A stretch of DNA of 64,000 nucleotides. It comes from Hymenobacter citatus (GTDB taxonomy: Bacteria; Bacteroidota; Bacteroidia; Cytophagales; Hymenobacteraceae). Shown here one piece after another: positions 12,130 to 64,000 of the stretch. The notes beneath the pieces are model-generated. The model made no database searches. It had not been told where the DNA came from and saw only the letters and a list, made by a program, of their open reading frames with translations. The stretch's first letter is position 1. Each line of letters starts with the position of its first letter. The stretch spans positions 62,001 through 126,000 of the forward strand of contig NZ_JACSCY010000011.1 in assembly GCF_014333615.1 (NCBI RefSeq), read 5' to 3'. Position numbers and translations under genes: made by a program.

Positions 12130-12476
12130 GTAGGGTAGCTGTTGTTAGCTGTTGGCTTTATCTGTTTGTTGGTTCCGCCAGTCTTAAGGCGGGTCGGAAA
12201 GAACATAACAGTTCGACTCTACGAAAAGTGCTCTGTGGGTCGGATAGGTACGCCACGCAGTAGGTTTTCGCCAGGTCTTATTAGTTAGTTGATTCAGAGA
12301 CTGAATCGGATTGCGGCCAACCACCGCCGGAGGTTACTATTGTTCTGACCATATCTCGGAACAACGCCGGTAGCGGCTGTTATCGGTTTCCCGAACCACA
12401 GGCACTTTATACTATTCTAACTGACTTGAAAAGTGGCTGCCGATACCGAAGCATCAGCAGCCACTACTTTCAAACT
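12130..12476 (-). other. Wide rpoB-rpoC gap with a hairpin abutting the rpoB stop
   Basis: No gene is visible in these 347 bp. At 12426-12473, four bases past the rpoB stop, TTGAAAAGTGGCTGC pairs with GCAGCCACTACTTTCAA apart from a 2-nt bulge. There is no U-run beyond the stem, so it is more likely a processing or stability hairpin than a terminator. The remaining 300 bp show no recognisable promoter or RNA family. Confidence 0.5.
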
Positions 12477-15400
12477 TTAGTCGAGCGTGATTTCCAAAGC
12501 TAGACCGCGCAACTCGTGAATGAGTACGTTGAATGACTCAGGGATATTCGGCTTAGGCAGCACGTCGCCCTTTACAATGGCTTCGTACGCCTTAGCACGG
12601 CCAATCACGTCGTCCGACTTCACAGTGAGGATTTCCTGTAGCACATTGGATGCTCCGAAGGCTTCCAGTGCCCACACTTCCATCTCACCGAAACGCTGAC
12701 CACCGAACTGTGCCTTACCACCCAGCGGCTGCTGCGTAATGAGAGAGTACGGCCCGATAGAACGAGCGTGCATCTTGTCGTCAACCAAGTGACCCAGCTT
12801 CAGCATGTAGATCACGCCTACCGTTACGGGCTGGTCAAACCGGTCACCCGATAAGCCATCGTGCAGATAAGCACGACCCCAATCAGGTAGGCCAGCCTCG
12901 GTCAGCTCTTTCGCTACTTCATCTTCGGTAGCACCGTCGAAAATTGGGGTAGCATAGGTGCGACCCATTTTCAAACCGGCCCAGCCAAGTACTGTCTCGT
13001 AGATCTGACCGATGTTCATGCGGCTTGGTACACCCAGCGGGTTCAGCACAATGTCCATCGGCGTGCCGTCGGGTAGGAAAGGCATGTCCTCGTCGCGCAC
13101 GATACGGGCTACTACCCCCTTGTTACCGTGACGACCAGCCATCTTATCCCCTACCTTCAGTTTACGCTTTTTGGCGATGTATACCTTGGCCAACTGCACG
13201 ATACCAGCGGGCAACTCGTCGCCTACCTCCAACGTAAACCGGTCACGCTTGAAGCGGGCCGTGATAGTGTTGCGGCGCTTCGCGTAGTTTTTCACTAGCT
13301 CAGCCAACATGCTGTTCACCTTCTCGTCAGCTGTCCAGCCTTCCAGAATAAGGTCTTTGAACATGTTCACCTCTTCCGGCACAGCGTAGTTGCTTTCATC
13401 CTTATAAGGGTTCTTGTCTGGGAAGAGAGCATCAGTGATATTCTTCTTGCCAAACTTGGCCCCCTTCGTCAGGATTTCATCGCCAAACTTATGCTTCACG
13501 CCCTGTGACGTTTTGCCGTCAAGCAATTGCACCAGCTTGTCGATCATCACCGCTTTCACGCCACGAAGCTCTTTCGCGTAAGAGTCCTTCAACTCTTCCA
13601 CTTCCTTCTTCGACTTAGCGCGCAAATTCTTATCCTTCTTCGGACGCGAGAACAGCTTCGTGCCGATTACCACACCGTTTAAAGATGGTGGTGCCTTAAG
13701 CGAAGCGTCTTTCACATCGCCAGCCTTATCACCAAAGATGGCGCGGAGCAGCTTCTCTTCCGGGGTAGGATCAGTTTCACCTTTTGGTGTGATCTTACCG
13801 ATAAGAATATCGCCTTCACGAACCTCAGCACCCAGACGGATAATACCGTTGTCGTCGAGGTTGCGTACAGCTTCTTCGCTTACGTTCGGAATCTCCGACG
13901 TTAGCTCTTCTTCGCCACGCTTGGTCTCACGTACCTCCAACTCGAATTCCTCAATGTGAATCGAGGTGAAGATATCGTCGCGCACTACCCGCTCCGAGAT
14001 GACAATAGCATCCTCAAAGTTGTAACCCTGCCATGGCATAAAGGCCACTTGCATGTTGCGTCCTAGTGCCAGTTCGCCGTTGTTGGTGCCGTAACCCTCA
14101 CACAGCGGCTCCCCTTTGCTCACGCGCTGACCGCGCTTCACGATAGGCGACAGGTTGATGCACGTATCCTGGTTCGTACGACGGAATTTGATTAAGTCGT
14201 ACGTGATACGCTCCGCATCGAAGCTCACGAGAATGTCATCAGCCGTCAGATCATATTTCACAATGATCTTGTTGGCATCCACATAATCGATTATCCCGTC
14301 ACCTTCGGCAACTACCAGCGTCCGCGAGTCGATGGCCACGCGGCCCTCCAGACCCGTGCCTACGATAGGCGCAGTGGCCTTCAGTAGCGGTACAGCCTGA
14401 CGTTGCATGTTCGAGCCCATCAGGGCGCGGTTAGCATCGTCGTGCTCCAGGAACGGAATCAGCGAAGCAGCTACCGATACAATTTGGTTCGGCGCTACGT
14501 CCATATAGCTATACTCGTCGGGACCTACCACCGGGAAGTCACCTTCAAAACGACCTTTTACCAGCTCGTTCACGAAGTTACCCGACTCATCCAGGCGGGC
14601 GTTGGCCTGCGCGATGTGGTGGGTATCCTCTTCCTCAGCCGTCAGGTACTTCACGTTCTCGGTCATGTCGACCTTGCCGCTTTCTACCGTACGGTAGGGC
14701 GTCTCAATGAAGCCCATCGAGTTCACGCGAGCGTGCACGCACAGCGACGAAATCAGACCGATGTTCGGACCTTCCGGCGTTTCGATGGTGCACAAGCGAC
14801 CGTAGTGCGTGTAGTGTACGTCACGTACCTCAAAACCAGCACGCTCCCGCGATAGACCTCCTGGCCCCAGTGCCGATACGCGACGCTTATGCGTCACCTC
14901 GGCCAGCGGGTTGGTTTGGTCCATAAACTGCGACAACTGGTTGGTACCGAAGAACGAGTTGATTACCGACGACAACGTCCGGGCGTTGATCAGATCAACT
15001 GGCTTGAAGTCCTCGTTGTCACGCACGTTCATGCGCTCCTTGATAGTACGCGCCATACGGGCCAAGCCTACCCCAAACTGGGCGTAGAGCTGCTCCCCTA
15101 CCGTGCGTACGCGGCGGTTGCTCAAGTGGTCAATGTCATCGACAATGGCCTTCGAGTTGATCAACCCAATGAGGTATTTCACTATGAGTACGATGTCCTC
15201 ATTGGTCAGCACGCGGGCTTCCCAGTTGGTATCGATACCCAGCTTCTTATTAATACGGTAGCGTCCTACGTCGCCGAGGTCGTAGCGCTTATCCGAGAAG
15301 AACAGTTTTTGGATGATGTCGCGAGCCGTCTCTTCGTCAGGAGCTTCCGTGTTACGGAGCTGACGATAGATTTGCTCTACGGCTTCCTTCTCCGAGTTCG

Positions 15401-16367
15401 AGTTGTCCTTCTGCAGCGTGTTGTAAATAATTGCGTAGTCCGCAATATTCACATTCTCGCGGTGCAGAATAACGGATTTCGTACCCGAGTTGATGATTGT
15501 GTCAATATCATCTTCTTCAATCGTCGAGTCACGTTCCAGCAATACCTCATTGCGGTCAATCGATACTACTTCACCGGTGTCTTCGTCTACGAAGTCCTCC
15601 GTCCAAGTGCGGAGCACCCGAGCTGCCAGTTTACGGCCTACTGCCTTCTTCAGGATTTTTTTATCGGCTTTCACTTCCTCCGACAGTCCGAACAAATCCA
15701 GAATGTCTTTGTCGGTACCATAGCCGATAGCACGCAGTAACGTAGTAACCGGAAATTTCTTCTTCCGGTCGATGTACGCGTACATCACGTTGTTCACGTC
15801 CGTGGCAAACTCAATCCACGAACCTTTAAACGGAATGATACGAGCAGAATATAGCTTCGTACCGTTCGTATGCTTGCTTTGCGCGAAGAATACGCCCGGC
15901 GAACGGTGCAACTGCGATACGATTACGCGCTCTGCACCATTGATAACGAAGGAGCCTTTTTCGGTCATGTATGGAATATTTCCCAAAAACACTTCCTGCT
16001 CAATCGTCTCAAAATCTTCGTTATCCGTATCATTACAGATAAGGCGCAACTTTGCCTTCAGTGGCACCGAATAAGTCAAGCCACGGTCAATACATTCATC
16101 CACCGAATACTTCGGTGGGTCAATGTGATAATCGATAAACTCCAGAACGAAGTTCTCGCGCGAGTCCGAAATAGGGAAGTTCTCCGCGAACACCTTGAAC
16201 AACCCTTCATCGGTGCGGTTCTCGGCGGCCGTCTCCAACTGGAAGAAGTCCTGGAACGACTGCAACTGCACGTCCAGGAAATCCGGATACTCAATAACCT
16301 TTTTAATCTTGGCGAAGTTGATCCGCTCGTAGGCTTTCTGCAAAGCCGTTTCTTTCGGTGTAGCCAA
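12477..16367 (-). CDS. rpoB: RNA polymerase beta subunit
   Basis: Catalytic beta subunit, forming the other half of the active-site cleft and the rifampicin pocket. The 1296-residue protein has the Rif region [19 protein letters not shown] and [12 protein letters not shown] with the wild-type residues expected of a sensitive enzyme, then [15 protein letters not shown] and the C-terminal [20 protein letters not shown]. It follows rplL after 195 bp that include a stem-loop. Length and domain order are ordinary for Bacteroidota. Confidence 0.98.
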
Positions 16368-47687: not shown

Positions 47688-50600
47688 ATGAACAACAATT
47701 ACATGTGGTATCACTCGTCTGTGCCAGCTACGGCCCGGCAAACGAGTAGCCGCCAAACCTGGCATGTGACTTTGCTGATGGTTCTGGCGGCTTTGTTTGT
47801 TTTTCTCCCTTTTTCCGGTCTGGCGCAAGCTACCCGGTCTATTTCGGGTAGAGTAACAGACGCTAATTCTAACGCTTTGCCAGGCGTTACGATTATCATT
47901 CCCGGCACCACCGTCGGCACTAGCTCCGGCTCCGATGGTTCGTTTGAGCTGCAAGTGCCCGCAGCTACCACTACCCTGGCGATTTCGTCGGTAGGCTACA
48001 CCTCGCAGCGCGTCGACATCACGGGTAAGTCTACCGTGCAAATCAGCTTGCAGGAAGACTCCAAGGCTTTGGGCGATGTGGTGGTGGTAGGCTACGGTAC
48101 GGCCCGCAAGGAGGACGTGACCGGCTCCGTGACGACTCTGACGGAAAAGGAGTTTAACCGGGGCACTTTCACCTCGCCCGACCAGCTGATTCAGGGCCGG
48201 GTATCGGGTGTGCAGGTGAGCAACAACAGCGGCCAGCCCGGCGGACCGGCCACTGTTCGCATCCGCGGCAACTCGGCTGTAACGGGCACCGGTCAGCCGC
48301 TGTATGTAGTAGATGGCGTGCCGCTTGATGGCCGTACGGCCCGGCCGGGCCTGGTGGCTTCTACCGATGTAGGCGCGGGCGCAGATAGCAACCCGCTCAA
48401 CTTCCTCAACCCCGACGATGTGGAGGCAGTAACCGTGTTGAAAGACGCTTCGGCTACGGCTATCTACGGTTCACGGGCGGCCTATGGCGTAGTGCTGATT
48501 ACCACGAAAAAAGGCAAAAGCGGCGCTCCGATCCTGAACGTGGGCATCTCCAATGGTTTCTCTACCCTGCTGCGGCGGCCCGAGTTCCTGAATGCCAGCC
48601 AGTATCGTGAGGCTATCACCTATTATGGTGCTCCGGCTGCCAACGACAAAGGTGGCGATGTGGATGCGCTCAAAGAGATTCTGCGCACCGGCTACCTCCA
48701 GAACTACAACGTAGCCATGAGCGGGGGCGGCGAAACCGGCCGTTACCGCCTCTCTATTGGCTACCTCGACCAAAATGGTATTGTAAAGAAGACAGGGTTT
48801 AAAAAGTACAGCGCCAACCTGTCTACCAACTTTCAGTTTCTAGAAAGCAAAAAGCTTGGGCTGGATGTGAACATTGCCACCAGCCAGTTCCGCGAGCAAT
48901 TGGCCAACATCACGACAGATGCCGGCTTCCGGGGCAGTCTCATTGGCCAGGCGTTGCAGTGGAACCCTACCCAACCCTTGCGCAACCCCGATGGCACGCT
49001 GTTCGTGCAGCCCGGCGACGTGGTAAACCCCGTAGCCAGCCAGGAGTACTACAACGACAACTCCCGGGTGACAACCATTTTGGCCAGTGCCGCTCCCTAC
49101 TACAAGTTCACGGACTGGCTTCAGTATCGGATGCTGGTGAGCGTCAACTACAACACCGGCGAGCGGCGTACCTCCATTGATCAGCGCCTTATCAACTACC
49201 CTGGTATTCAAAATCAAGGTTTCGCCAGCATTGGCCAAAATGAACTGACGACCCAGCAAATTGCGCATACCCTCACCTTCAACAAGCAGGTGACTGATGG
49301 CTTGAACATCAACGCGCTCCTGGGCTACGAATACACGAAGTTTGCGAACCAGGGCTCCAACGTGAATGCGTACGGCAACCCCGAGCAAGGTGGCTTCGGT
49401 AACTATGGCCTCGATTACACGAACTACATTCAGAGCGCTTCCTCGGGGTCTCGTTTGCTGTCCTCTTTCGTTGATCCTTCCTCGGAGCTACAGTCTGTAT
49501 TTGGCCGGGCCATTCTGAACTACAAAGACCGGTACGTGCTAACCGGCACGCTGCGCCGGGACGAGAGCAGCAAGTTTGGTCCGAACAACCGGGTAGGCTA
49601 CTTCCCTTCTTTCGCTATTGCCTGGGATCTGAGCCAGGAGTCTTTCTTCCCAACGGAGCGTCTTACCCAGTTGAAGCTGCGGGCTGGCTACGGCCGCACC
49701 GGCAACCAGGAATTCCCGGCTGGCTCGGCTCAGGGGCGCTACTCCTTCAACAACCTGGGTGCCCAGGCGCCCCTCAACGATGCCAACCCAAACCTGAAAT
49801 GGCAGTCGGATGCGCAGTACAACGCTGGTATTGATGTAGGGGTGTTCAACAACCGCTTAACCCTTACGGCCGACTACTTCTACAAAACCACCACCGACTT
49901 GCTGTTTCCGCAGCTGCCAGGCCAGCCTGCGCCGCCAGTGCAGGCCATTCGCTGGACTAACCTCGATGGTGAGATTGTGAACCGCGGGGTAGAGCTGGCG
50001 CTGGGTACTACCATCGTAACCAATGAGAAGGTAGAGGTAGGCTTTAATGCCAACGCTACCTTCATCCACAACGAAGTGAAAAACCTGCGGACGGCCGATA
50101 TCACCACTGGGGCCATCAACGGCCAAGGGTTGTCGGGCGTGTTGGCGCAGCTCATCACGAGCGGCTACCCCATCAACGCCTTCTTCCTACCCCAATATAC
50201 CGGCCTCAATGAGCAGGGCTTAGCCAATACGCCTGGCGCCATTGCTTACTCTGGTAGCCCCAACCCGAAGACACTGCTAGGCCTGAGCACCAACATCCGC
50301 TACGGCAAACTTTCGCTGGTTGCGAACATGACCGGTGCCTTTGGGCAGTACATCTACAATAACACGCTCAACGCGGTAGGGAACGTAGGTCAGATTGGAG
50401 CAGGCAAAAACATTGCGCTTTCCACCTTCGAAAATCCAGTAAAAGAATCTATTGGCAACCCCTCGGCGGCTACTACCCGCTACCTCGAAAAGGGCAACTA
50501 CCTGAAGATGTCGAACCTAACGCTGGCGTACTCCTTCGGCAACATTGGTTCGGTGTTTAAAGGCGCCCGCGTGTATGCTACGGGCCAAAACCTGTTCGTC

Positions 50601-50738
50601 ATCACCAAATACGACGGTTTCGACCCTGAGATTAATACCATTAAGCGAGGAGCCAACCAGGTGCCTTCTGTGGGCATTGACTACCTGGCTTACCCAAGCG
50701 CCCGCACCTTCACGTTCGGCGTCAACTTCTCCCTGTAA
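47688..50738 (+). CDS. SusC/RagA-type TonB-dependent outer-membrane transporter
   Basis: A 1016-residue outer-membrane transporter for glycans or oligosaccharides. After a long N-terminal signal region ending LFVFLPFSGLAQA there is a CarboxypepD-like domain (RSISGRVTDANSNALPGVT), then the plug with GDVVVVGYGTARKEDVTGSV and QLIQGRVSGVQVSNNSGQPG, and the barrel to the C-terminal SARTFTFGVNFSL. It pairs with the SusD gene 21 bp downstream. With the GH65 gene the locus probably imports a short alpha-glucoside; this is inferred from the enzyme family. Confidence 0.95.
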   Translation: MNNNYMWYHSSVPATARQTSSRQTWHVTLLMVLAALFVFLPFSGLAQATRSISGRVTDANSNALPGVTIIIPGTTVGTSSGSDGSFELQVPAATTTLAISSVGYTSQRVDITGKSTVQISLQEDSKALGDVVVVGYGTARKEDVTGSVTTLTEKEFNRGTFTSPDQLIQGRVSGVQVSNNSGQPGGPATVRIRGNSAVTGTGQPLYVVDGVPLDGRTARPGLVASTDVGAGADSNPLNFLNPDDVEAVTVLKDASATAIYGSRAAYGVVLITTKKGKSGAPILNVGISNGFSTLLRRPEFLNASQYREAITYYGAPAANDKGGDVDALKEILRTGYLQNYNVAMSGGGETGRYRLSIGYLDQNGIVKKTGFKKYSANLSTNFQFLESKKLGLDVNIATSQFREQLANITTDAGFRGSLIGQALQWNPTQPLRNPDGTLFVQPGDVVNPVASQEYYNDNSRVTTILASAAPYYKFTDWLQYRMLVSVNYNTGERRTSIDQRLINYPGIQNQGFASIGQNELTTQQIAHTLTFNKQVTDGLNINALLGYEYTKFANQGSNVNAYGNPEQGGFGNYGLDYTNYIQSASSGSRLLSSFVDPSSELQSVFGRAILNYKDRYVLTGTLRRDESSKFGPNNRVGYFPSFAIAWDLSQESFFPTERLTQLKLRAGYGRTGNQEFPAGSAQGRYSFNNLGAQAPLNDANPNLKWQSDAQYNAGIDVGVFNNRLTLTADYFYKTTTDLLFPQLPGQPAPPVQAIRWTNLDGEIVNRGVELALGTTIVTNEKVEVGFNANATFIHNEVKNLRTADITTGAINGQGLSGVLAQLITSGYPINAFFLPQYTGLNEQGLANTPGAIAYSGSPNPKTLLGLSTNIRYGKLSLVANMTGAFGQYIYNNTLNAVGNVGQIGAGKNIALSTFENPVKESIGNPSAATTRYLEKGNYLKMSNLTLAYSFGNIGSVFKGARVYATGQNLFVITKYDGFDPEINTIKRGANQVPSVGIDYLAYPSARTFTFGVNFSL

Positions 50739-50759
50739 CCTCTCAGTTCTTTACACATC

Positions 50760-52325
50760 ATGACGTACCATAAGTTTACGCGTGCGGCTGCCTTGCTGGC
50801 CGTGCTTCAGCTGGCTAATAGCTGCGACGTTAGTGAAAGGCTAGCGGGCCAACTAAGTGATTCCCAAATTCCGGCGGGCGACCCTGCTGCCCTGCTCACC
50901 GGCGTATACAACGCCCAACGCGACCCAATCCAAGGCTGCGTGAGCGTATTTGCGCTAGAGGAAGTATCAACCGATGCCCGGATTATGCCTACCCGTGGGC
51001 CAGACTGGGACGACAACGGCAAATGGAGGGAGCTGTTCAACCATACCTGGACTCCCAACAACGAGCGGGTACGCGACACGTTTACGCAGCTCGAGGGCAT
51101 CATTTATTCCTCTACCGACCTGTTGCGCTTTGAGCCCAGCACGCAGCAGCAGGCCGAGGCCCGCTTCATTCGGGCGTGGGCTACCTATCTGCTGCTCGAC
51201 CTCTACGACCAGGTGTTGTACCGTGACCCCGGCGAAAACCTGGGTACGCAGGCACGGGTACGCAAAGGCACCGAAGCGCTTGATTTTGTTCTGAGCGAAA
51301 TCAATGCCGTGCAGAAAGACCTGCCTGATGGACCAGCCGGCCGCGCTAATAAAGATGCTGCCCGGGCCCTGCTGATGAAGTGCTACCTCAACAAAGGGGT
51401 GTACGCCAACCGCCAAGCGCCTACCTTCAGTGCGGCCGATATGAACCAGGTGATTAAACTGGCCGATGAGATTATCAACAGCGGCAAGTACTCATTCGCC
51501 CCCAGCGTTTTCGACAATTTTGCGCCCAACAACACCGTCATCGGCCGCGAAAACATCTTCACGCAGGAAAACACCTTCGGCAACGCCGGGCCCACGCGCG
51601 ACTTCTGGAAGTTTGTGTCGCACTACAACATGGCGCCCGTCAACGGCTATAACGGGCCGGCTACTACTTCTGAATTTTACAGCCTGTTTGAGGCCAACGA
51701 CAAACGGCGGGGCGTGGCTTACAAAACGGATGGTGGGCCACCCAACCCCGGCAACCGCATCAATGTGGGCTTTCTGGTTGGTCAGCAATACGACCTCACT
51801 ACCGGGGCTATCGTTAGAACCCGCAGCGGAGCTCCTTTGATGTTCACCCAGGATATCAACCTCTTTGAAACGGGTGCTGATCTGGAGTCGAAAGGTATAC
51901 GTCCCATCAAATACCCCGTCGACTACGTGAGCGAGGCCAAGGGCGGCAACGGATGCGAGAATGACCACGTGACCTTCCGCCTGGCCGATGTGCTCTTGAT
52001 GAAGGCCGAAGCCATTTTGCGGGGAGGCACGCCTACCTCTGCCGGGCCGTATGGTGGCACGGCCCTGGCCATCGTCAACTCCATTCGCACTGACCCAGGC
52101 CGTGGAGCCAGCGCCTTCACCACACTCACGCTCGATATGCTCCTCGCAGAACGCGGCCGGGAGTTATACGGCGAGTCGTGGCGCCGGCAGGATATGATTC
52201 GCTTCGGCAAGTTTCTGCTACCCCGCAAAGACAAGCCCCAAAGCGACCCAAAGTACCTGATCTATCCTATTCCCAAGTCTCAGGTCGACATCAACTCCAA
52301 CATCACGCAGAACCCAGGGTACTAA
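50760..52325 (+). CDS. SusD/RagB-type glycan-binding lipoprotein
   Basis: A 521-residue surface lipoprotein that caps the SusC barrel. The signal MTYHKFTRAAALLAVLQLAN ends at the lipobox Cys in ANSCD. It has TPR-like helices (RFIRAWATYLLLDLYDQVLY), then NDHVTFRLADVLLMKAEAIL and LLAERGRELYGESWRRQDMIRFG, the SusD C-terminal signature. It lies 21 bp after susC, on one transcript. Confidence 0.95.
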   Translation: MTYHKFTRAAALLAVLQLANSCDVSERLAGQLSDSQIPAGDPAALLTGVYNAQRDPIQGCVSVFALEEVSTDARIMPTRGPDWDDNGKWRELFNHTWTPNNERVRDTFTQLEGIIYSSTDLLRFEPSTQQQAEARFIRAWATYLLLDLYDQVLYRDPGENLGTQARVRKGTEALDFVLSEINAVQKDLPDGPAGRANKDAARALLMKCYLNKGVYANRQAPTFSAADMNQVIKLADEIINSGKYSFAPSVFDNFAPNNTVIGRENIFTQENTFGNAGPTRDFWKFVSHYNMAPVNGYNGPATTSEFYSLFEANDKRRGVAYKTDGGPPNPGNRINVGFLVGQQYDLTTGAIVRTRSGAPLMFTQDINLFETGADLESKGIRPIKYPVDYVSEAKGGNGCENDHVTFRLADVLLMKAEAILRGGTPTSAGPYGGTALAIVNSIRTDPGRGASAFTTLTLDMLLAERGRELYGESWRRQDMIRFGKFLLPRKDKPQSDPKYLIYPIPKSQVDINSNITQNPGY

Positions 52326-52350
52326 TCCTTGGGTAGGTAGTGCATGATAG

Positions 52351-52446
52351 AACGTCATGCTGAACGGAATGAAGTTTCCTATGTGCTGTGGTACCCTTGC
52401 CGGACTGTACCCGCACTTCAGGCTTCAGGCCGTTTAGCATGACGTT
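52351..52446. repeat. Palindromic element between susD and the GH65 gene
   Basis: A 96-bp inverted repeat with ends AACGTCATGCTGAACG and CGTTTAGCATGACGTT (52351-52366 with 52431-52446), matching further inward (GAAGTTT and GCTTCAGG). It is the third element of this kind in the window and lies between two genes expected to be co-transcribed. Confidence 0.75.
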
Positions 52447-52495
52447 TTATTGTGTCTTCTCTATTCGCTGCTACACCTTTTCTTTTGCTTACACG

Positions 52496-54541
52496 ATGCG
52501 TCTTTCCCTACCCTCCTCCCTTGCGGCCCTGCTCCTGTTGCTTTGCTTGCCATCAGTCGCACAATCGCCCGACCCGTGGGTGCTATCGGCCGACAAAGTG
52601 GATCCGGCGGCTTATTACGGCGTGACGGTGGCCAACGGTATGCTGGGCGTGGTGTCGTCGCCCGAGCCGTTTAAGGTGAAAAGCGTGGTGCTGGCTGGCG
52701 CCTACGACCAGTATGGCCGGGGTAGGGTCAGCAATTTCCTCAACGGCTTCAACCTGCTGAACATGTACTTGGAAATTGACGGTCGGCGGCTGGGCCCGGC
52801 CGACGCCCGCAACTTCCGGCAGCAGCTCGATATGCGGGGCGCCTCGCTTACCACCACCTTCGACTATGGCGACAAGGCAACCATCAGCTACACCTACCGC
52901 GCCTTGCGACACCTCCCCTACTGCGTGCTGATGGACGTAACCATCACCGCCAAAAAAGACCTCACCCTAACGGCCGCCAGCGTAATGGAAGCTCCTGATG
53001 CGCTACGCGACGTGCAGAACTACTACAACGAAATCGACCGCCCGCACGTCACCATCAGCCTGCTTACCTCCACAGCCCGCAGCCCTACCGGTAAGCTGCA
53101 ACTGTGCGCCAGCACTAGCTTCTTATTCTCGGAACCGCACGGGCAGGAGCCGCGTGTCATTCATGAGATGTGGGACAGCAACATGCACCTGATGAAGTTC
53201 GGCAAAACGCTGAAGGCGGGGCAGGCTTATACCTACGGTGTGACGGGCGCTACCCTCACCTCCGCCCACGACGCCGACCCCTTGAATCAGGTAGAGCGCC
53301 TCACGGTGTTTGCCCGGCTGGAAGGCAAGGAGCGTCTACTGGCTTTCCACCAGAAAGCCTGGCAAGACCTGTGGCAAAGCGACATTCAGATTACCGGCGA
53401 CGCGCAGGCCCAGCAGGACGTGCACAGCATGCTCTACCACCTCTACAGCTTCTCGCGGGCCGGCACCGATTTTTCGCCTTCGCCCATGGGCCTCTCGGGC
53501 TTGGGCTACAACGGCCACGTGTTCTGGGATACGGATCTGTGGATGTTTCCGGCCCTACTGGTGCTGCACCCCGAAATTGCGAAGTCGCTGGTGGAATACC
53601 GGTTCAACCGGCTGGAAGCAGCCCGGCGCAACGCGTTTGCGCACGGCTACCAGGGCGCCATGTTTCCGTGGGAAAGTGCCGACTCGGGCGTGGAGGAAAC
53701 GCCGGTGTGGGCGCTGAGCGGGCCGTTTGAGCACCATATCTCGGCCGATGTGGCGCTGGCCGCCTGGCAATATTACTGCGTGACGCAGGACAGAGCCTGG
53801 CTCCGCGAGAAAGGCTGGCCCATCTTGCAAGCCACCGCCGACTTTTGGGCCAGCAGGGTAGAGCGCAACGGCCCCGGCCACTACGACATCAAGAACGTGG
53901 TAGCCGCCGATGAGTGGGCTGAAAACGTGGACAACAACGCCTTCACCAATGCCGCCGCCAAAGTAAATCTGCAAAATGCCACTGCCGCGGCCAAGCTGCT
54001 AGGCCTACCCGCCAACCCCGACTGGGCGCTGGTGGCCCAAAACATTCCTATCCTGCGCCTACCCAATGGCGTGACACAGGAACACGCCACCTACCAAGGC
54101 GAGGGCATCAAGCAGGGCGACGTCAATTTACTGGCCTACCCGCTGAAGGTGATTACCGATCCAGCACAAATCAGAAAAGACCTGGAGTACTACGAAACCC
54201 GCGTGCCCAACGAAGGCACTCCGGCCATGACCCAGGCCATTTTTGCCTTGCTCTATGCCCGCCTGGGCGATGGTGCAAAGGCGCGGCAGTTTTTTCGGGA
54301 TGCATACGAGCCTAATCTGCTGCCGCCATTCCGGGTTATTGCCGAAACCAAGGGCGGCACAAACCCCTACTTTGCTACGGGCGCGGGCGGGGTACTGCAA
54401 GCCGTGCTAATGGGCTTTGGCGGGCTTGACATTACACCCGCTGGCATTGTGCAACGCAAAACCACGTTGCCTACCGGCTGGCAATCGGTGAAGATAACGG
54501 GGATAGGTCCGCAGCACAAAACGTATTCTGTTGCCCGCTGA
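52496..54541 (+). CDS. Exported glycoside hydrolase family 65 protein
   Basis: GH65 enzymes split or phosphorolyse alpha-glucosides such as maltose, trehalose or kojibiose. From the ATG at 52496 the protein has 681 residues with signal peptide MRLSLPSSLAALLLLLCLPSVA. It has the N-terminal beta-sandwich, then the (alpha/alpha)6 barrel with GHVFWDTDLWMFPALLVLHP, GAMFPWESADSGVEETP and the general-acid motif AADEWAENVDNNAFTN with Glu at about residue 473. A start 36 codons upstream lies in the repeat and is rejected. Being exported and next to SusCD suggests it acts in the periplasm. Hydrolase or phosphorylase cannot be decided here. Confidence 0.9.
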   Translation: MRLSLPSSLAALLLLLCLPSVAQSPDPWVLSADKVDPAAYYGVTVANGMLGVVSSPEPFKVKSVVLAGAYDQYGRGRVSNFLNGFNLLNMYLEIDGRRLGPADARNFRQQLDMRGASLTTTFDYGDKATISYTYRALRHLPYCVLMDVTITAKKDLTLTAASVMEAPDALRDVQNYYNEIDRPHVTISLLTSTARSPTGKLQLCASTSFLFSEPHGQEPRVIHEMWDSNMHLMKFGKTLKAGQAYTYGVTGATLTSAHDADPLNQVERLTVFARLEGKERLLAFHQKAWQDLWQSDIQITGDAQAQQDVHSMLYHLYSFSRAGTDFSPSPMGLSGLGYNGHVFWDTDLWMFPALLVLHPEIAKSLVEYRFNRLEAARRNAFAHGYQGAMFPWESADSGVEETPVWALSGPFEHHISADVALAAWQYYCVTQDRAWLREKGWPILQATADFWASRVERNGPGHYDIKNVVAADEWAENVDNNAFTNAAAKVNLQNATAAAKLLGLPANPDWALVAQNIPILRLPNGVTQEHATYQGEGIKQGDVNLLAYPLKVITDPAQIRKDLEYYETRVPNEGTPAMTQAIFALLYARLGDGAKARQFFRDAYEPNLLPPFRVIAETKGGTNPYFATGAGGVLQAVLMGFGGLDITPAGIVQRKTTLPTGWQSVKITGIGPQHKTYSVAR

Positions 54542-57256: not shown

Positions 57257-57294
57257 GGCTTTGTAACTGCTTGTTAACAGACAGTTACAAAGCC
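57257..57294. promoter_or_regulatory. Perfect 13-bp inverted repeat upstream of the S8 protease gene
   Basis: GGCTTTGTAACTG (57257-57269) and CAGTTACAAAGCC (57282-57294) flank a 12-bp spacer, ending 24 bp before the ATG. Either a dimer-binding operator or a 5' leader hairpin. The preceding 56989-57256 is AT-rich and shows no gene. Confidence 0.6.
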
Positions 57295-57318
57295 ATTCAT
57301 CCACTCTTACTTCCTTTC

Positions 57319-58818
57319 ATGTATACCAAACCTCTTACCCAAAAAATCCTTCCTCTATTCAGCTTAGGCTTGCTTTTTACGTTTGGCTGCGCGAAAGAAG
57401 ACCTGACGCCTACCGAAGATTTCAGTGCTACTTCTGCCCAACAAGCCACGCAAGATGGTCCTACCGTTACGCTAGACTCTAAACGGTACATTATCATTGC
57501 CTCCGGCGACCAATTGCCTAGCGACATTACTGCTCGGGCTAAATCGGCCAATGGCACCGTCACCTCGCTGCTTAGCGAGGCAGGCATTGCCGTTGCTACC
57601 TCCGATGACCCACAATTCGCCGCCAAGGCTTCCAAAATTACCGGCGTACGCTCTGTGGTGCGCGACTTCACCTACCAGGCTTTCGATCCACAAAAGGAGC
57701 GCTCGGCCGATGTAGCTGCCAACAACGTGAACCCGCCCAGCACCGGTGACAGCAACCCCTACTTCCCGCTGCAATGGGGCCACACGGCCATTCAGGCACC
57801 GCAAGCCTGGAACACGGGCGCACAAGGCGAAGGCGTAGTGGTAGCTGACCTAGACAGCGGCTTCGACCTGACCCACCCCGATTTGCAGCCCAACATTGTA
57901 GGTAGCGTGTCGTTTGTGCCCGGCGAAGATGCTCAGTTTCGGGGCGCAGGCTCCAGCCACGGCACCCACACGGCTGGTACTATTGCCGCGGCCGACAACA
58001 ACATTGGCGTTATTGGCGTGGCACCTAAGTCCAAGCTTCTGCTAGTTAAAGTACTGCGTGACAGCGGATCAGGCTCGTTTTCCTGGATGATGAGCGGCAT
58101 TGTGTATGCGGTGCAGAACAACGCAAAAGTCATCAATCTGAGCCTGGGTGCGGCCTTCCTGCGCAATGGCAAGTTCCTGAATGACAACGGCACACCAAAC
58201 GATCCATCGGATGACTTTATCGAGCACGATGCCAAAGGCACGCAGGAGTTGCTGGTAGCCATCAGCAAGGTAACCAGCTACGCTGCCAAGCAGGGCGTTA
58301 CCATCATTGCATCGGCGGGCAACGATGCCAACAATGGCAACAAAGATCAGTCACTGGTACACATTCCGGCCGATGCCACGGGCGTTATCTCGATTTCGGC
58401 CACTGGCCCCATGGGCTGGGCGCTGAATCCGCTCACAACGAATCTGGACCGGTTGGCTTCGTACTCCAATTACGGCACGTCGGCCATCGATTTTGCAGCT
58501 CCTGGCGGCGACTTCGCCTACCCCGGCAGTGAGATAGTGGTCTTCAAAGGGGTGCGCCAGTACGTATGGGCCCTCGATATGGTGCTGAGCACGGCCAAGA
58601 ATGGTGGCTATACCTGGATGGCGGGCACCAGCATGGCTGCTCCGCATGCTACTGGGGTAGCCGCCCTCATCATTGGCAAAAACGGCGGCCAAATGGACCC
58701 TGCCCGCGTGAAAGCAGTTCTGCGCGCTTCGGCTGACGACCTGGGCAAGCCCGGCCGCGACGCCGCCTACGGCCACGGCCGCGTGAATGCCTTCCGTGCA
58801 GTATCGCAGGCACTATAG
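57319..58818 (+). CDS. S8 family subtilisin-like serine protease, lipoprotein
   Basis: A 499-residue protease from the ATG at 57319. The signal MYTKPLTQKILPLFSLGLLF ends at a lipobox Cys (FTFGC). Residues 56-120 resemble an I9-type inhibitory prodomain (RYIIIASGDQLPSDITARA). The catalytic domain has Asp179 (VVADLDSGFD), His214 (GSSHGTHTAGT) and Ser438 (AGTSMAAPHATG), so the triad is complete. Expected at the cell surface or periplasm. No C-terminal sorting domain is present. It stands alone with a terminator. Confidence 0.93.
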   Translation: MYTKPLTQKILPLFSLGLLFTFGCAKEDLTPTEDFSATSAQQATQDGPTVTLDSKRYIIIASGDQLPSDITARAKSANGTVTSLLSEAGIAVATSDDPQFAAKASKITGVRSVVRDFTYQAFDPQKERSADVAANNVNPPSTGDSNPYFPLQWGHTAIQAPQAWNTGAQGEGVVVADLDSGFDLTHPDLQPNIVGSVSFVPGEDAQFRGAGSSHGTHTAGTIAAADNNIGVIGVAPKSKLLLVKVLRDSGSGSFSWMMSGIVYAVQNNAKVINLSLGAAFLRNGKFLNDNGTPNDPSDDFIEHDAKGTQELLVAISKVTSYAAKQGVTIIASAGNDANNGNKDQSLVHIPADATGVISISATGPMGWALNPLTTNLDRLASYSNYGTSAIDFAAPGGDFAYPGSEIVVFKGVRQYVWALDMVLSTAKNGGYTWMAGTSMAAPHATGVAALIIGKNGGQMDPARVKAVLRASADDLGKPGRDAAYGHGRVNAFRAVSQAL

Positions 58819-58904: not shown

Positions 58905-59684
58905 CTAATTGCCTAGTATTGTCTGATACCATAGCGGCTGTAGATGATAAAAAACAGGCCTCATTGCTGTGACAGTTGCAGGGTAGGCTAGTGCGCCCAA
59001 GTGTTGCGCGTCGACTATGAAGCTAGCCAGCACCCAACTGGCATACCGCTGCGTTTGCGCCTGCGGCACGGTGTGCATACCGTCTAAAGCGGGTAGACCA
59101 CCGAAGTAGTCATCGATACCTGTGCCCAGCGCCTTTGCCATTGCTTCCTTGCGGGTCCAGGACTGAAAGAAAGCCACGGCCGGGTCTTTGGCAGCAGCAA
59201 CATACTGCTGCTCTGGTTCAGAAAAGCAGCTTGCTGCTACATCGCCGTACGCAAACTCCGGCTTTATTTTTTCGATATCTACCCCTACCTCTGCTCGGGC
59301 AATAGCTACTATCAGCCACGCATCGTCGTACGAAATAGAAAGATGCCACTCTGGCGCGTTGGCGCAGTACAGCTTGCCGGCTTGACTAGTAGCTAATTCT
59401 ACCATTTCTGCGGGCCTCCCCATCAGATTGCCCAGCACCAAGCGCAGGGTAGCACGCCCAAGCAAAAACCGCTCGGCATGCCTGGCGTGATAATACCCCG
59501 CCGCCCGTCGTTGCTCACCTGCTTGCACGTATTTCCCTAGACAGCCGGCTACTTCAGCATAGTCAGCTACCTGTACCCTGAACACCATGGGCGCAGCTAC
59601 GGGCGGCAGCTGCACCGCACGTTGCCACTCCGCGTGGGCAATAGTTGTGCAGTTGATAGAAATAGAGCAAGCCTCTGTCGGCAT
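58905..59684 (-). CDS. 4'-phosphopantetheinyl transferase (Sfp-like)
   Basis: Attaches the phosphopantetheine arm from CoA to carrier-protein serines. The 259-residue protein has the magnesium-binding motif VGVDIEKI at about 133-140 and the catalytic SWTRKEAMAKALG at about 175-187, both complete, and the two-lobe layout of the Sfp group. It lies 62 bp after the NRPS gene on the same strand, so it probably primes that carrier domain. The operon ends at the bidirectional terminator. Confidence 0.93.
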   Translation of the reverse strand: MPTEACSISINCTTIAHAEWQRAVQLPPVAAPMVFRVQVADYAEVAGCLGKYVQAGEQRRAAGYYHARHAERFLLGRATLRLVLGNLMGRPAEMVELATSQAGKLYCANAPEWHLSISYDDAWLIVAIARAEVGVDIEKIKPEFAYGDVAASCFSEPEQQYVAAAKDPAVAFFQSWTRKEAMAKALGTGIDDYFGGLPALDGMHTVPQAQTQRYASWVLASFIVDAQHLGALAYPATVTAMRPVFYHLQPLWYQTILGN

Positions 59685-59746
59685 ACATCACTATAAAAAG
59701 CTGCTTATAAGCATACGCAAGTCTATTCTATCCTAATGATAAACAG

Positions 59747-62700
59747 CTATTTAATACTATTATCTAGTGCGGCTTGCAGGGTAGCTGCCAGTGACTTGTC
59801 GTGTGGGGGAGAGAACAGGTAATTGTGGTCACTCTCTACCTCGTGAATGCGAATGCCCTGTTGCGCGTAGGGTTTCCAGCCTAGGAACTCGAAGTCTTCC
59901 ATGTAGTGCGTTTTCTCCTTCACCCGGAACAAATCGATTTTGATGTTTTCGGGTGTCAGCTTGTAGGCGTAATACGCTCTATTGTTGGCGCTGCCTACTG
60001 CGGCAGCTGCTTTTGTTTCTTCCTGCTTGCGTTTGGTTAGTTTCTGCCAGCTGTCTCGTAGCGACATCACTTTGTAGCGGATGGTAGTACGGGGGCTATT
60101 TTTTAGCAGTACCAGGAAATATAGCCACTTCATGGTGAACAGCTTTAGAGTACGCACTACCCTTGCCGCCTGCGAAGCGGGTATTTCTCCTTCGTGTGCG
60201 TAGGTGTCAAACAGGCCCAGAAACTGTACCTGCTTGCCGCGGGCCAGCAGCTGGCGCGCCATCTCATAGGCGATGATACCCCCAAAAGAATAGCCAGCCA
60301 GGGCGTAGGGCCCGTTCGGGTTCGTTTTTTCGATGGAGTTGACGTAGTGCGCTGCTATATCCTCAATGGTTTCCAGCGGCTTCTCTTCCCCATTGAGGCC
60401 ACAGGCCTGCAGACCATAGATGGGCTGCTCAGGGTCCATGTAGCGACTCATGGCCTGGTACAGCAGCACGTTCAGGCCGGCGCCGTGCACAAGGTAGAGC
60501 GGCGTCTTGGAGCCCTGCGGCTTGATGGGCACCAGCGAATCCCAGGTGATGAATTGACTATCGTGTTCCAGCAACCGCGCCAGCTTCTCTATGGTAGAGT
60601 GCTCGAAGAGAGTAGCTAGGGGCAGGCGCTGACCGATTTCCTTTTCGATGCAGGCCATGACGCGCACGGCCAGCAGCGAGTGCCCGCCCAGCGCGAAAAA
60701 ATCAGCAAAAATATCGACCTGATCCATTCCCAGGCAGGTTTTCCAGATATCGGCAATGCGCTGCTCCATGGCCGTGCGAGGGGCCGTAGGCGCCGGTAGA
60801 CCCGGCGATTCGGGAGCGAGTAACGCCAGGGCCTTACGGTCTACTTTGCTGTTGAGCGTCAGGGGTAGGGCGGGCAGCGTCACGTACGCATCGGGGACCA
60901 TGTAGGCGGGCAGGCGAGCGGCCAATAGCTGCTTCCAAGTAGCGAGTTGCGCAGCCGAAGCACGGAGGCTGCCTTGTGCATCTTTGGGCACCAAGTAGGC
61001 CACCAGCCGCTCGTCGCCGGGGCGCGAGCCCTGGGCTAGTACGGCAGCAGCCTGCACATCGGGGCAGGAAAGAAGCAGTTGTTCAATCTCGCCCAACTCG
61101 ATGCGGTAGCCCCGGATTTTCACCTGCTGATCCAGACGGCCCAGACACTGTAGCTCTCCGCTGGGCAGCAGGCGACCCAGGTCACCGGTACGGTATAAAA
61201 GCGCATCGGGAGTAGCGCCGAACGGATTTGGGAGGAAGCGCTCAGCCGTTAGATCGGGGCGGCGCCAGTAGCCGCGGGCCACACCGTGGCCGGCAATGCA
61301 CAGCTCGCCTACCTCCCCGGCAGGCACCACTTGCTGTTGCTCATCCAGCACGTAGAACTGCGTGTTGGCAATGGGCTTTCCAATGGTGATGACCTCTTCC
61401 GTGCCAGTTACCTGCTGCACCGACGACCAGATGGTAGTTTCCGTAGGGCCATACATATTCCAGACTGCCTGACACTTACCTGCCAGGCGGGTAGCCAATT
61501 CGGGCAGCAGCGCTTCGCCTCCACACAAGGCTGTAAGGGGTAGGGGCTGCTCCCAACCGGCCTCCAGTACCATGCGCCAAGTGGCGGGCGTAGCCTGCAT
61601 GAGCGTAACGCTAGCCGTTTGCATGAGCTGGAGCAGCGCCCGGCCGTCGCGGGCGGTTTCGGTGTCTGCCAGCAGGATGGTAGCGCCGCTGATGAGCGGC
61701 AGAAATAATTCCAGCCCTGCAATATCAAAGGAGATGGTGGTGAGTGCCAGCAACGTATCGGCGGCCGTGATGCCCGGCTGCTGCTGCATGCTGCGCAGGA
61801 AGTTGACCACGTTGCGGTGCGTAACGGCTACTCCTTTAGGCCGGCCGGTAGAGCCGGAGGTGTAAAGAATATACAGTAGTGCGTCGCTGGTCAGGTGCAG
61901 GGTGGGCAACGGCATCAGGCTGGTGCCGGCATCCTCCAGGCGCAACACCGTGGCCGGGGTCTGAAAATCCAGCGTAACGCTACCCGCCGTCAGCACAAAG
62001 GCCGCTGCGGAGTCCGTCAGCATAAACGCCAACCGCTCCGAGGGGTAGGCCACATCGAGCGGCACGTAGGTGGCACCGCACCGCATAATAGCCAGCAGGG
62101 CAACCAGCAACTCGGGCGAGCGTTCCACAGCTAGGCCTACCACGTCGCCGATGCCTACTCCGCGGGCAGTGAGGTAGCCAGCTACCTGTTCGGCCCGGCG
62201 CAGCAGCGCTGCATACGACATTTCGGTAGCGCCAAAGCGAATAGCCGTTTGCCGGGGCGTAGCCCGCGCCTGCGCGGCAATCAATTGAAACAGCGTAGCC
62301 TCGCCGGGGTAGGGTTGCGCAGTGGCATTCAGTTGCCGGTAGGCTGCGTCTGACACAGTGGTAGTGGACACCGGCTTGCCTAAGCGCATGGCAGGATTCT
62401 GAACGATGGCACGCGCCAGCTCTTCAAACTCCGTCATCATGCGGGCAATGGTGGCCACCTCAAACAGCGTGGTGTTGTACGACCACTCCAGCACTAGGGC
62501 CTGCTCGGTACCACTGATATTCAGAAACAACTCAAACGCCTCGTACTCACGGGGGTTGCTGTGCAGCGTGTAGGTAAGGCCCTGAAACTGCACACCGTTG
62601 GCCATGCCCATATCCACATTGAACATGACCGGTACCAGCGGTATGCGCCCCGGATTGCGCGGAAGGCTGAGCTTTTTGAGCAGACCGCCAAAGGTGAGCT

Positions 62701-63760
62701 GCTGCTGCTCGTAGGCGTCGAACAGGGCTGTTTTGCGCTGTTGAAGGTAGTCGGTGAAACGGGCGGTGGGGGTAGGCCGACTGCGGAGCGGCAGCAGGTT
62801 TACGCAGTGTCCAATCAGGTTTTGCTTTTCCAGCAACGACTGCCCGGCAGTAGGTAGCCCCACTACCAGGTCTTGCTGGCCCGTCTGGCGGTGAAGCCAC
62901 ACTTCAAAGGTGGCCAGCAGTGTGGTGACGAAGCTGCACCCGTGGCGCTGGCCCAGGGCTTTTAGCCCGGCTACCACGTCTGGCGCCAGGGGGTAGTCGG
63001 CGCGGCTGCTTTTGTAGGTGCGCACGGCGGGGCGGGGCGCATCGGCTGGCAGCGTCACGGCGGGTACCGCGTCGGTATACTGCCCTAGCCAATAGGATTC
63101 TACGGCCTGGTACGCCGCACTGCGGTTGAATAGCAGTTGCTCATCGGCATAATCACTGAACAGCGGAGCGGCGGGCAAATCCGGAAACAGACCTTGTACG
63201 TTGGCGGAGTACAGCTGCCCCAGCTCCTGCAACAAAATTCCCAGCGACCACCCATCGCAGATGATGTGGTGGGCCGTGAGCACCAGTTCATAGGCCGTGG
63301 GGGCTAGCTGAAGCAGCCCGGCCCTCAGCAAAGGCCCATGCAGCAGATTGAACAGGTGGCGGGCATCCTGTCGCACGTAGGCTGCTACTAGCTCGGCCTG
63401 TTCGGCGGCAGTGTGATGCGCAATGTTCTGAAAGGACAGCTCAATGGGCAACTCCCGGAACACGCACATATACTGGCCATCGGCGCTAAAAGCCGACCGC
63501 AACGCCTCGTGTCGCCGCACCAGCTGCGCCAGCGCCTGGCGCAACGCTACCCGATCGAGCACGCCCGTGAGCCGCAAGGATACCGACTCGTTGTAAGCAC
63601 GGCTGGCGTCGTCGCCGCCTACCACGCAAGCAGTCCAGATTTCCGCTTGCGACTCCGTGATGGGTACTACCCGCACCATTTCCGGCCCCGCGAATGGATC
63701 GAACGCGGGAGCTTCGGAAACAGACTTGGCGGGAGCAACAACAGTAGAAATTTGCACCAT
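59747..63760 (-). CDS. Nonribosomal peptide synthetase, C-A-PCP-TE module
   Basis: A 1337-residue single-module synthetase with a release domain. The condensation domain (about 30-460) has HHIICDGWS at 164-172. The adenylation domain (about 480-980) has YTSGSTGRPKG at 633-643, the core YGPTETTIW and NSKVDRKAL. Aligned to GrsA positions, the code residues read D-I-L-Q-L-G-M-I-W-K, matching the glycine code. The carrier domain has LGGHSLLAVR with Ser1028. The thioesterase has GYSFGG with Ser1158 and a C-terminal ESDHNY His. The N-terminal condensation domain implies an upstream donor. It lies 6 bp after the partial gene and 62 bp before the Sfp-like gene. Confidence 0.93.
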   Translation of the reverse strand: MVQISTVVAPAKSVSEAPAFDPFAGPEMVRVVPITESQAEIWTACVVGGDDASRAYNESVSLRLTGVLDRVALRQALAQLVRRHEALRSAFSADGQYMCVFRELPIELSFQNIAHHTAAEQAELVAAYVRQDARHLFNLLHGPLLRAGLLQLAPTAYELVLTAHHIICDGWSLGILLQELGQLYSANVQGLFPDLPAAPLFSDYADEQLLFNRSAAYQAVESYWLGQYTDAVPAVTLPADAPRPAVRTYKSSRADYPLAPDVVAGLKALGQRHGCSFVTTLLATFEVWLHRQTGQQDLVVGLPTAGQSLLEKQNLIGHCVNLLPLRSRPTPTARFTDYLQQRKTALFDAYEQQQLTFGGLLKKLSLPRNPGRIPLVPVMFNVDMGMANGVQFQGLTYTLHSNPREYEAFELFLNISGTEQALVLEWSYNTTLFEVATIARMMTEFEELARAIVQNPAMRLGKPVSTTTVSDAAYRQLNATAQPYPGEATLFQLIAAQARATPRQTAIRFGATEMSYAALLRRAEQVAGYLTARGVGIGDVVGLAVERSPELLVALLAIMRCGATYVPLDVAYPSERLAFMLTDSAAAFVLTAGSVTLDFQTPATVLRLEDAGTSLMPLPTLHLTSDALLYILYTSGSTGRPKGVAVTHRNVVNFLRSMQQQPGITAADTLLALTTISFDIAGLELFLPLISGATILLADTETARDGRALLQLMQTASVTLMQATPATWRMVLEAGWEQPLPLTALCGGEALLPELATRLAGKCQAVWNMYGPTETTIWSSVQQVTGTEEVITIGKPIANTQFYVLDEQQQVVPAGEVGELCIAGHGVARGYWRRPDLTAERFLPNPFGATPDALLYRTGDLGRLLPSGELQCLGRLDQQVKIRGYRIELGEIEQLLLSCPDVQAAAVLAQGSRPGDERLVAYLVPKDAQGSLRASAAQLATWKQLLAARLPAYMVPDAYVTLPALPLTLNSKVDRKALALLAPESPGLPAPTAPRTAMEQRIADIWKTCLGMDQVDIFADFFALGGHSLLAVRVMACIEKEIGQRLPLATLFEHSTIEKLARLLEHDSQFITWDSLVPIKPQGSKTPLYLVHGAGLNVLLYQAMSRYMDPEQPIYGLQACGLNGEEKPLETIEDIAAHYVNSIEKTNPNGPYALAGYSFGGIIAYEMARQLLARGKQVQFLGLFDTYAHEGEIPASQAARVVRTLKLFTMKWLYFLVLLKNSPRTTIRYKVMSLRDSWQKLTKRKQEETKAAAAVGSANNRAYYAYKLTPENIKIDLFRVKEKTHYMEDFEFLGWKPYAQQGIRIHEVESDHNYLFSPPHDKSLAATLQAALDNSIK

Positions 63761-63766
63761 CGAAAA

Positions 63767-64000
63767 TCAGTTTAAGTTGATTTGCAGGTAATGGTCGGGC
63801 TGTTCCGGATCGGTTATGAACCAGGCGGGGTTGCCTGCCTGGTCGCGGCCCAGGCGGGCGCCGGGCACCGGGGGCTGGTTGAGCGCCCGCGTGGTGCCGG
63901 CCGGGGCAGGCGCCGTGGCGTGGTCTGGGCTGGCAGGTAGGAAGCCCGCTGCTACCAGCTCATCAATGCTACTCAGGCAAAGCGCTACCACACGGTCTAC
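63767..64000 (-). CDS. C-terminal end of an upstream gene, probably a synthase (cut by right edge)
   Basis: The frame is open to base 64000 (VDRVVALCLSSIDELVAAGF at the visible start) and ends 6 bp before the NRPS start. The last 40 residues read PPVPGARLGRDQAGNPAWFI then DPEQPDHYLQINLN. I recall similar tails at the C-terminus of NRPS or PKS-type proteins, but I cannot verify this here. The tight spacing says it belongs to the same biosynthetic operon. No catalytic motif lies in the visible part. Confidence 0.6.
   Translation of the reverse strand, partial: VDRVVALCLSSIDELVAAGFLPASPDHATAPAPAGTTRALNQPPVPGARLGRDQAGNPAWFITDPEQPDHYLQINLN

Follow-up and report, generated by a model that had tools for sequence, protein, structure and literature searches.

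Hybrids of polyketide synthase (PKS) and nonribosomal peptide synthetase (NRPS) with an aminotransferase in cis are already known, and the locus described here is of this kind. It lies at the end of a window of 64,000 nucleotides from Hymenobacter citatus (contig NZ_JACSCY010000011.1, positions 62,001 to 126,000; G000:C2:62001-126000 in our numbering), in an assembly of 5.08 Mb and 31 contigs. The locus comprises a hybrid gene encoding adenylation (A), peptidyl carrier protein (PCP), ketosynthase (KS), acyltransferase (AT), acyl carrier protein (ACP) and aminotransferase domains, an NRPS gene encoding condensation (C), A, PCP and thioesterase (TE) domains, and a gene for a 4'-phosphopantetheinyl transferase (PPTase). 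The A domains of the hybrid and of the NRPS are called A1 and A2, respectively.

Several described systems share parts of this layout. AB3403, presumably a four-domain termination protein, we take to belong to a different pathway, and we know of no beta-aminating PKS partner for it. In tyrocidine synthase 2 (TycB) and gramicidin S synthase 2 (GrsB), the proline domain reportedly comes after a C domain, unlike A1, which starts the line and would feed a ketosynthase. Mycosubtilin synthase MycA is said to start from a fatty acid and to lead to a long lipopeptide. A fatty-acyl ligase starter marks the iturin/mycosubtilin type of lipopeptide synthetase; a line of this type was rejected here, as the hybrid begins with an amino acid A domain in place of such a ligase. 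MycA (6kfm, 6kfr, 6kfu) also has a class III aminotransferase domain at the PKS/NRPS module border, which moves an amine from Gln onto the ACP-bound beta-ketothioester (PMC3870968; all papers are cited here from excerpts). Unlike MycA, the line in the window starts with an amino acid A domain, ends in one module of predicted glycine specificity and has its C domain on a separate protein. The puwainaphycin synthetase likewise gives a beta-amino product from an NRPS/PKS hybrid, but differs in its fatty-acyl ligase starter and lipopeptide product (PMC4219810).

The layout itself is listed for Pedobacter heparinus in row 4 of a 2013 table (PMC3870968), where C6XWU5 appears as A-CP-KS-AT-CP-PLP1 (PLP, pyridoxal phosphate) with cluster type Nrps-t1pks and prediction Nrp-Mal-Gly-Pk. 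Its starter is given as Nrp and its product is unnamed in the excerpt, and its kinship with the line in the window is judged from layout and phylum. A literature search turned up neither a product nor a family name for the arrangement, and only PMC3870968 lists it; subscription papers were mostly outside the search, so this is no proof of absence. The excerpts of three surveys of gene clusters in the phylum (PMC12181424, PMC9248904, PMC11925752) do not name it.

The three-gene locus and its proposed chemistry

The hybrid gene continues beyond the window (full extent L007:7767-14462, equal to G000:C2:125767-132462; L numbers denote loci) and encodes 2231 aa. The Pfam search found AMP-binding, PP-binding, ketoacyl synthase, acyltransferase, a second PP-binding and Aminotran_3, in this order, and no ketoreductase in the hybrid. 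A1 forms the very start of the protein, with an in-frame stop directly upstream, and a gap of 6 bp separates the stop codon of the gene (63767-63769) from the ATG of the NRPS gene (63758-63760). An earlier account made from the window's letters, the sequence-only reading, had noted an open frame 6 bp upstream of the NRPS gene that continued past the window, had deduced an upstream donor from the C domain and had proposed looking past position 64000. The full hybrid gene is found there; the frame and the donor thus exist, but the donor is A-PCP-KS-AT-ACP-aminotransferase and not an ordinary NRPS module. The line is therefore a hybrid NRPS-PKS that should pass on a beta-amino acyl chain.

In the NRPS, every Pfam domain scored above its cut-off (Condensation 30-468, AMP-binding 494-831, AMP-binding_C 890-971, PP-binding 999-1063 and Thioesterase 1086-1328; the second codon is the first residue of the query), and the four domains stand in the order of a termination module. 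The protein carries HHIICDG, YTSGSTG and GYSFGG together with the TE His, and the residues checked in these, including HH...DG of the C domain and Ser and His of the TE, were invariant in 83 of 83 related loci (defined below). The complete catalytic motifs claimed by the sequence-only reading are therefore present, and the terminal TE supports its chain-releasing last module. The coordinates are listed in Table 1.

Table 1. Features of the locus in window coordinates
Feature	Position	Strand	Basis and remarks
Hybrid A-PCP-KS-AT-ACP-aminotransferase, C-terminal end	63767..64000	-	First gene; 2231 aa; Pfam; runs on to would-be window position 70462
NRPS, C-A-PCP-TE, 1337 aa	59747..63760	-	Second gene of apparent operon; list of open reading frames (ORFs) and Pfam search
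Condensation domain (HHIICDG)	62354..63670	-	PF00668, 288 bits
Adenylation domain A2, glycine-type code D-I-L-Q-L-G-M-I-W	60845..62278	-	PF00501 and PF13193
PCP (LGGHSLLA)	60569..60763	-	PF00550
Thioesterase (GYSFGG), predicted chain release	59774..60502	-	PF00975
4'-Phosphopantetheinyl transferase, 259 aa	58905..59684	-	Third gene, 62 bp after NRPS; PF01648, 53 bits

Condensation gave a single match in the assembly, in this NRPS, and two of the five AMP-binding matches of the assembly fall in the pair, so the line may consist entirely of these two proteins. Ketoacyl synthase gave four further matches in the assembly, all in open frames of 417-431 aa. A longer NRPS running past the window was dropped, as the assembly has only one Condensation match.

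Taken together, it is likely that the locus encodes a self-contained two-protein hybrid NRPS-PKS line with an adjoining PPTase, which would combine proline, a malonyl unit (its beta-ketone converted to a beta-amine) and glycine and then release the chain. A1 would adenylate an alpha-amino acid, most likely proline, and load it onto the first PCP, the amine staying free because no C domain precedes A1. The KS would condense this amino acid with malonyl from the AT, and the cis aminotransferase, with no ketoreductase present, would convert the beta-ketone to a beta-amine, giving 3-amino-3-(pyrrolidin-2-yl)propanoyl-ACP if the starter is proline. Passing from the hybrid to the second protein, the beta-amino chain would be joined by the C domain to glycine loaded by A2, and the TE would hydrolyse or cyclise the chain. 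The product would probably be a small doubly aminated Pro-acetate-Gly compound; the masses calculated by hand are [M+H]+ 216.134 for the linear form (C9H17N3O3) and 198.124 for the cyclised form (C9H15N3O2).

The beta-amination step is very likely, judging from the make-up of the hybrid. Among solved structures its aminotransferase was nearest to MycA (6kfm, 390 bits, against 180 bits for the next protein), and the domain follows KS-AT-ACP, which is the layout of cis beta-aminating hybrids of the MycA kind. The PLP Lys and the Asp of the aminotransferase were invariant in all 83 loci, and the AT motif HAFH, which we take to be of malonyl type, was whole in 82 of them.

As for release, a TE that cyclises the chain, with attack of the beta-amine or the pyrrolidine nitrogen on the glycine carbonyl, is possible but the less probable mode. 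Free amines would be expected for it, as nothing precedes A1 in the hybrid, and the TE belongs to PF00975; however, the resulting seven- and eight-membered rings would, from general chemical knowledge, be strained. Since such a small lactam would have no free glycine end, a product ending in glycine would result only if the TE hydrolyses the chain.

Predicted substrates of the two adenylation domains

Glycine is the highly probable substrate of A2, as far as its pocket allows prediction. The best match of the A2 pocket stretch in the PDB was AB3403 (4zxh/4zxi), presumably a glycine enzyme, with the aligned code DILQLGVVW. Re-reading of the A2 code gave the letters D-I-L-Q-L-G-M-I-W of the sequence-only reading, and we assigned its tenth letter, K, to what we take to be the A10 lysine, placed by motif. 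DILQLGMIWK is described as common to four glycine-activating domains with a monooxygenase (PMC12283262); no such insert was seen in A2 in the Pfam search. The alignment and this listing support the match to glycine claimed earlier.

A1 scored 374 bits with the amino acid A domain model TIGR01733 (cut-off 317) and has Asp at position 235; its substrate is rather likely proline or a close cyclic analogue. The pocket stretch of A1 had only two PDB matches at E ≤ 1e-15, TycB (9bfd_B) and GrsB (8p5o_A), whose A domains we take to be proline-activating. The textbook code of proline domains of this type is DVQLIAHVVK. As aligned, A1 reads D-V-Q-F-M-A-Q-V-V and TycB D-V-Q-S-I-A-H-V-V, so that six of nine positions are equal to TycB/GrsB (D, V, Q, A, V, V); the fourth position was set by alignment placement, and one residue earlier would give L in both A1 and TycB. 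The other three positions (F278, M299 and Q322 in place of S, I and H) weigh against proline, and it is mainly Q322 that keeps proline at the level of a likely assignment. The same assembly logic with another A1 amino acid, such as azetidine-2-carboxylate or pipecolate, would change the start of the product, and we regard this as unlikely though not negligible. Beyond the three differing positions, a reported azetidine-2-carboxylate code, DMQLVSQQVK, also has Q at 322 (PMC12283262), and the 83 loci combine one core with 30 different A1 codes, which indicates tolerance of the core for many starters. Against it, the pocket stretch matched no other PDB sequence at the threshold used, and Val236 and Gln239 together form a common proline signature, found in 25 proline codes (n = 59 of 71 proline domains; PMC12283262). 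A word search of the literature turned up neither a Q322 code nor the textbook proline code, and hence carries no weight either way.

Conserved core and varying ends among relatives

Related loci were taken as the best 80 of at least 556 stretches encoding a relative of the ACP-aminotransferase region (tblastn, E ≤ 1e-3); judged by their record titles, all 80 come from Bacteroidota. The order A-PCP-KS-AT-ACP-aminotransferase was found in 79 of these 80, and a C-containing NRPS followed on the same strand in 74 of the 79, with a median gap of 4.5 bases. A PPTase lay within 4 kb downstream on the same strand in 49 of the 68 loci having at least 800 bases downstream, and was missing there from 19. 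In three Maribacter loci (L115, L120 and L129) the C-A-PCP-TE gene precedes the hybrid, contrary to the rule; the L120 hybrid has 2475 aa, with extra sequence ahead of its A domain. An insert interrupts the second A domain in 17 of 74 loci, and all three of the interrupted domains checked by Pfam (L057, L075, L088) contain a methyltransferase domain, because of which N-methylglycine is the likely unit there. Two C domains were present in L088 and L127, and L078 (11056-15756, + strand) shows two Condensation stretches before the single A domain of its second protein.

With 14 genus genomes and the window added, 95 loci were at hand, of which 83 had all seven segments; the 12 incomplete or odd ones were dropped from the code, conservation and tree counts. 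Mean identities were 68% for KS, 57% for AT, 50% for C, 47% for A2, 45% for A1, 43% for TE and 74% for the aminotransferase, the last being high partly by selection, as loci were picked by their score to the ACP-aminotransferase region. Sixteen positions of KS, AT, aminotransferase, C and TE plus one per A domain were invariant in all 83 loci, except one AT position (82/83). In contrast to these fixed residues, the codes vary: 30 A1 codes and 26 A2 codes form 50 pairs, with DVQFMAQVV in 39 loci for A1 and DILQLGMIW in 23 for A2. Correlations of distances were 0.53 for KS and aminotransferase, 0.60 for KS and C, 0.39 for TE and KS, 0.38 for A2 and KS, 0.27 for A1 and KS and 0.07 (Spearman) for A1 and A2. 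The A domains do not stand out by sequence divergence as such, since TE and C are as divergent and A2 and TE track KS equally in their distances; what sets the A domains apart is the change of code and the weak correlation of A1 with KS and with A2. On a quickly built KS and aminotransferase tree, in which 21 of 80 inner branches are weak, six A1 classes require no fewer than 16 changes (mean of 32.4 after shuffling, with none of 200 shuffles giving so low a value) and four A2 classes 14; the classes were set by us, and names such as Asn and Asp are our own labels for the codes. The ends thus changed repeatedly, but not so often as to erase their grouping by descent.

The closest relative, L133, shows no change in the order, orientation or spacing of the three genes, and dN/dS against it was 0.077 for the NRPS, 0.117 for the hybrid and 0.180 for the PPTase; the cluster is therefore not a chance arrangement. 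Of the 14 genus genomes, 13 gave a match covering at least half of the hybrid and 13 one covering at least half of the NRPS, and the flanking ORFs are matched in L133 only, which suggests that the location of the cluster differs between genomes. In L145 (4183-15816, - strand) the hybrid is broken into three frames, and the NRPS and PPTase frames are long. This relative, genus genome G118 with a hybrid gene in pieces with stops, would favour a decaying or inactive cluster; for the window such decay is very improbable, as both synthetase genes have uninterrupted frames with the checked residues in place, and each has a dN/dS close to 0.1 against L133.

The family is patchy in the genus. At E ≤ 1e-60 the ACP-aminotransferase query matched 23 of 120 genomes of the genus (20 of 114 good ones) and 23 of 204 in the taxonomic family, in one of six genera. 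At E ≤ 1e-80 it matched 18 of 395 genomes of a phylum sample; 12 of the 18, the window's own included, had a frame of 2176-2269 aa, one of them (G572) with a stop inside the match, and six matches lay in other frames of 1804 to 4384 aa.

Several points, besides the three A1 positions, weigh against a self-contained line from proline to glycine. Ninety-seven of the 120 genus genomes have no match. The hybrid is not followed by a C-containing NRPS in L055 and L058, both Fibrella, or in L142 of the window's genus (8011-15638, - strand), where a PPTase follows the hybrid at a distance of about 320 bp and no C-A-PCP-TE gene intervenes. After the PPTase, the next most shared neighbour family reaches just 27 of 80 loci. 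Some A domains need an MbtH-like protein, and the search of the genome yielded none. The long ORF that comes next after the L055 hybrid reads as amidohydrolase-like.

A second NRPS, A-PCP-C-A-PCP-TE, is convergent beside the pair in three loci of the genus, L053 (16301-22174, - strand), L135 (2-4759, + strand) and L136 (2-4723, + strand), and the pathway may be longer in these. Such adjoining dimodular NRPSs, and the hybrids of L055, L058 and L142, would fit a line that is part of a larger pathway, with enzymes acting in trans or with the product serving as a component of another compound that the cell makes. We consider this improbable for H. citatus, since the assembly has no other Condensation domain and a C-containing NRPS follows the hybrid in nearly all related loci, and the self-contained line is preferred.

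Genomic surroundings and significance

A PF01648 match in a protein of more than 200 aa is taken to mark an Sfp-type PPTase, and the product of the third gene fits this. The "dedicated Sfp-like enzyme" of the sequence-only reading does adjoin the NRPS, but "dedicated" is plausible and no more, as the genome's only other PF01648 match (G000:C26:165297-165605, L148) gives a second PPTase-like protein and 19 of 68 related loci have no PPTase nearby. A shared neighbour that might reveal the role was considered and dropped: behind the synthetase pair and the PPTase (55 loci), the two most shared neighbour families occur in 27 and 26 of the 80 loci, mostly on the other strand, and appear glycosyltransferase-like by reading. 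On the other strand upstream of the hybrid lie a short ORF (L007:14915-15226) and a histidine-kinase-like ORF, named by reading (L007:15273-16670). A subtilase family S8 peptidase (PF00082; window 57271-58818, + strand) is convergent with the cluster and matched in L133 only among the 14 genus genomes. Three successive ORFs at window 47688-54541 (+ strand) resemble, from their translations, a SusC/SusD outer-membrane pair and a glycoside hydrolase.

Pigments aside, no secondary metabolite is reported from Hymenobacter according to the excerpt of PMC11925752, which supports the earlier remark that natural product clusters of this kind from Cytophagales are little studied. For Hymenobacter psoromatis the same excerpt lists an "NRPS, T1PKS" region that resembles no known cluster and may correspond to the one described here. 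In one survey, 12 of 306 gene cluster families of the phylum grouped with known clusters (PMC9248904). A Flavobacterium NRPS-PKS cluster is described in reviews as essential for suppression of Rhizoctonia in roots (PMC7680756, PMC13211072). A tie of our family to this cluster, BGC298, was dropped, as the excerpts of the reviews give no domain layout; an ecological tie is possible, and one member of our family, L122, is from Flavobacterium.

More tentatively, with somewhat less than an even chance in our judgement, the family may consist of minimal two-gene lines across the Bacteroidota, with a fixed beta-aminating PKS core and exchangeable ends, yielding small compounds with free amines (vicinal 3,4-diamino acyl chains with one amino acid cap, sometimes N-methylated) of a class not yet isolated. 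If the proposed line is correct, its two proteins and PPTase would be small enough to rebuild in E. coli, and the relatives would supply natural variants with swapped ends on a single conserved beta-aminating core. This could aid both the discovery of a compound class, in a phylum where few cluster families group with known ones, and the study of how A domains are exchanged.

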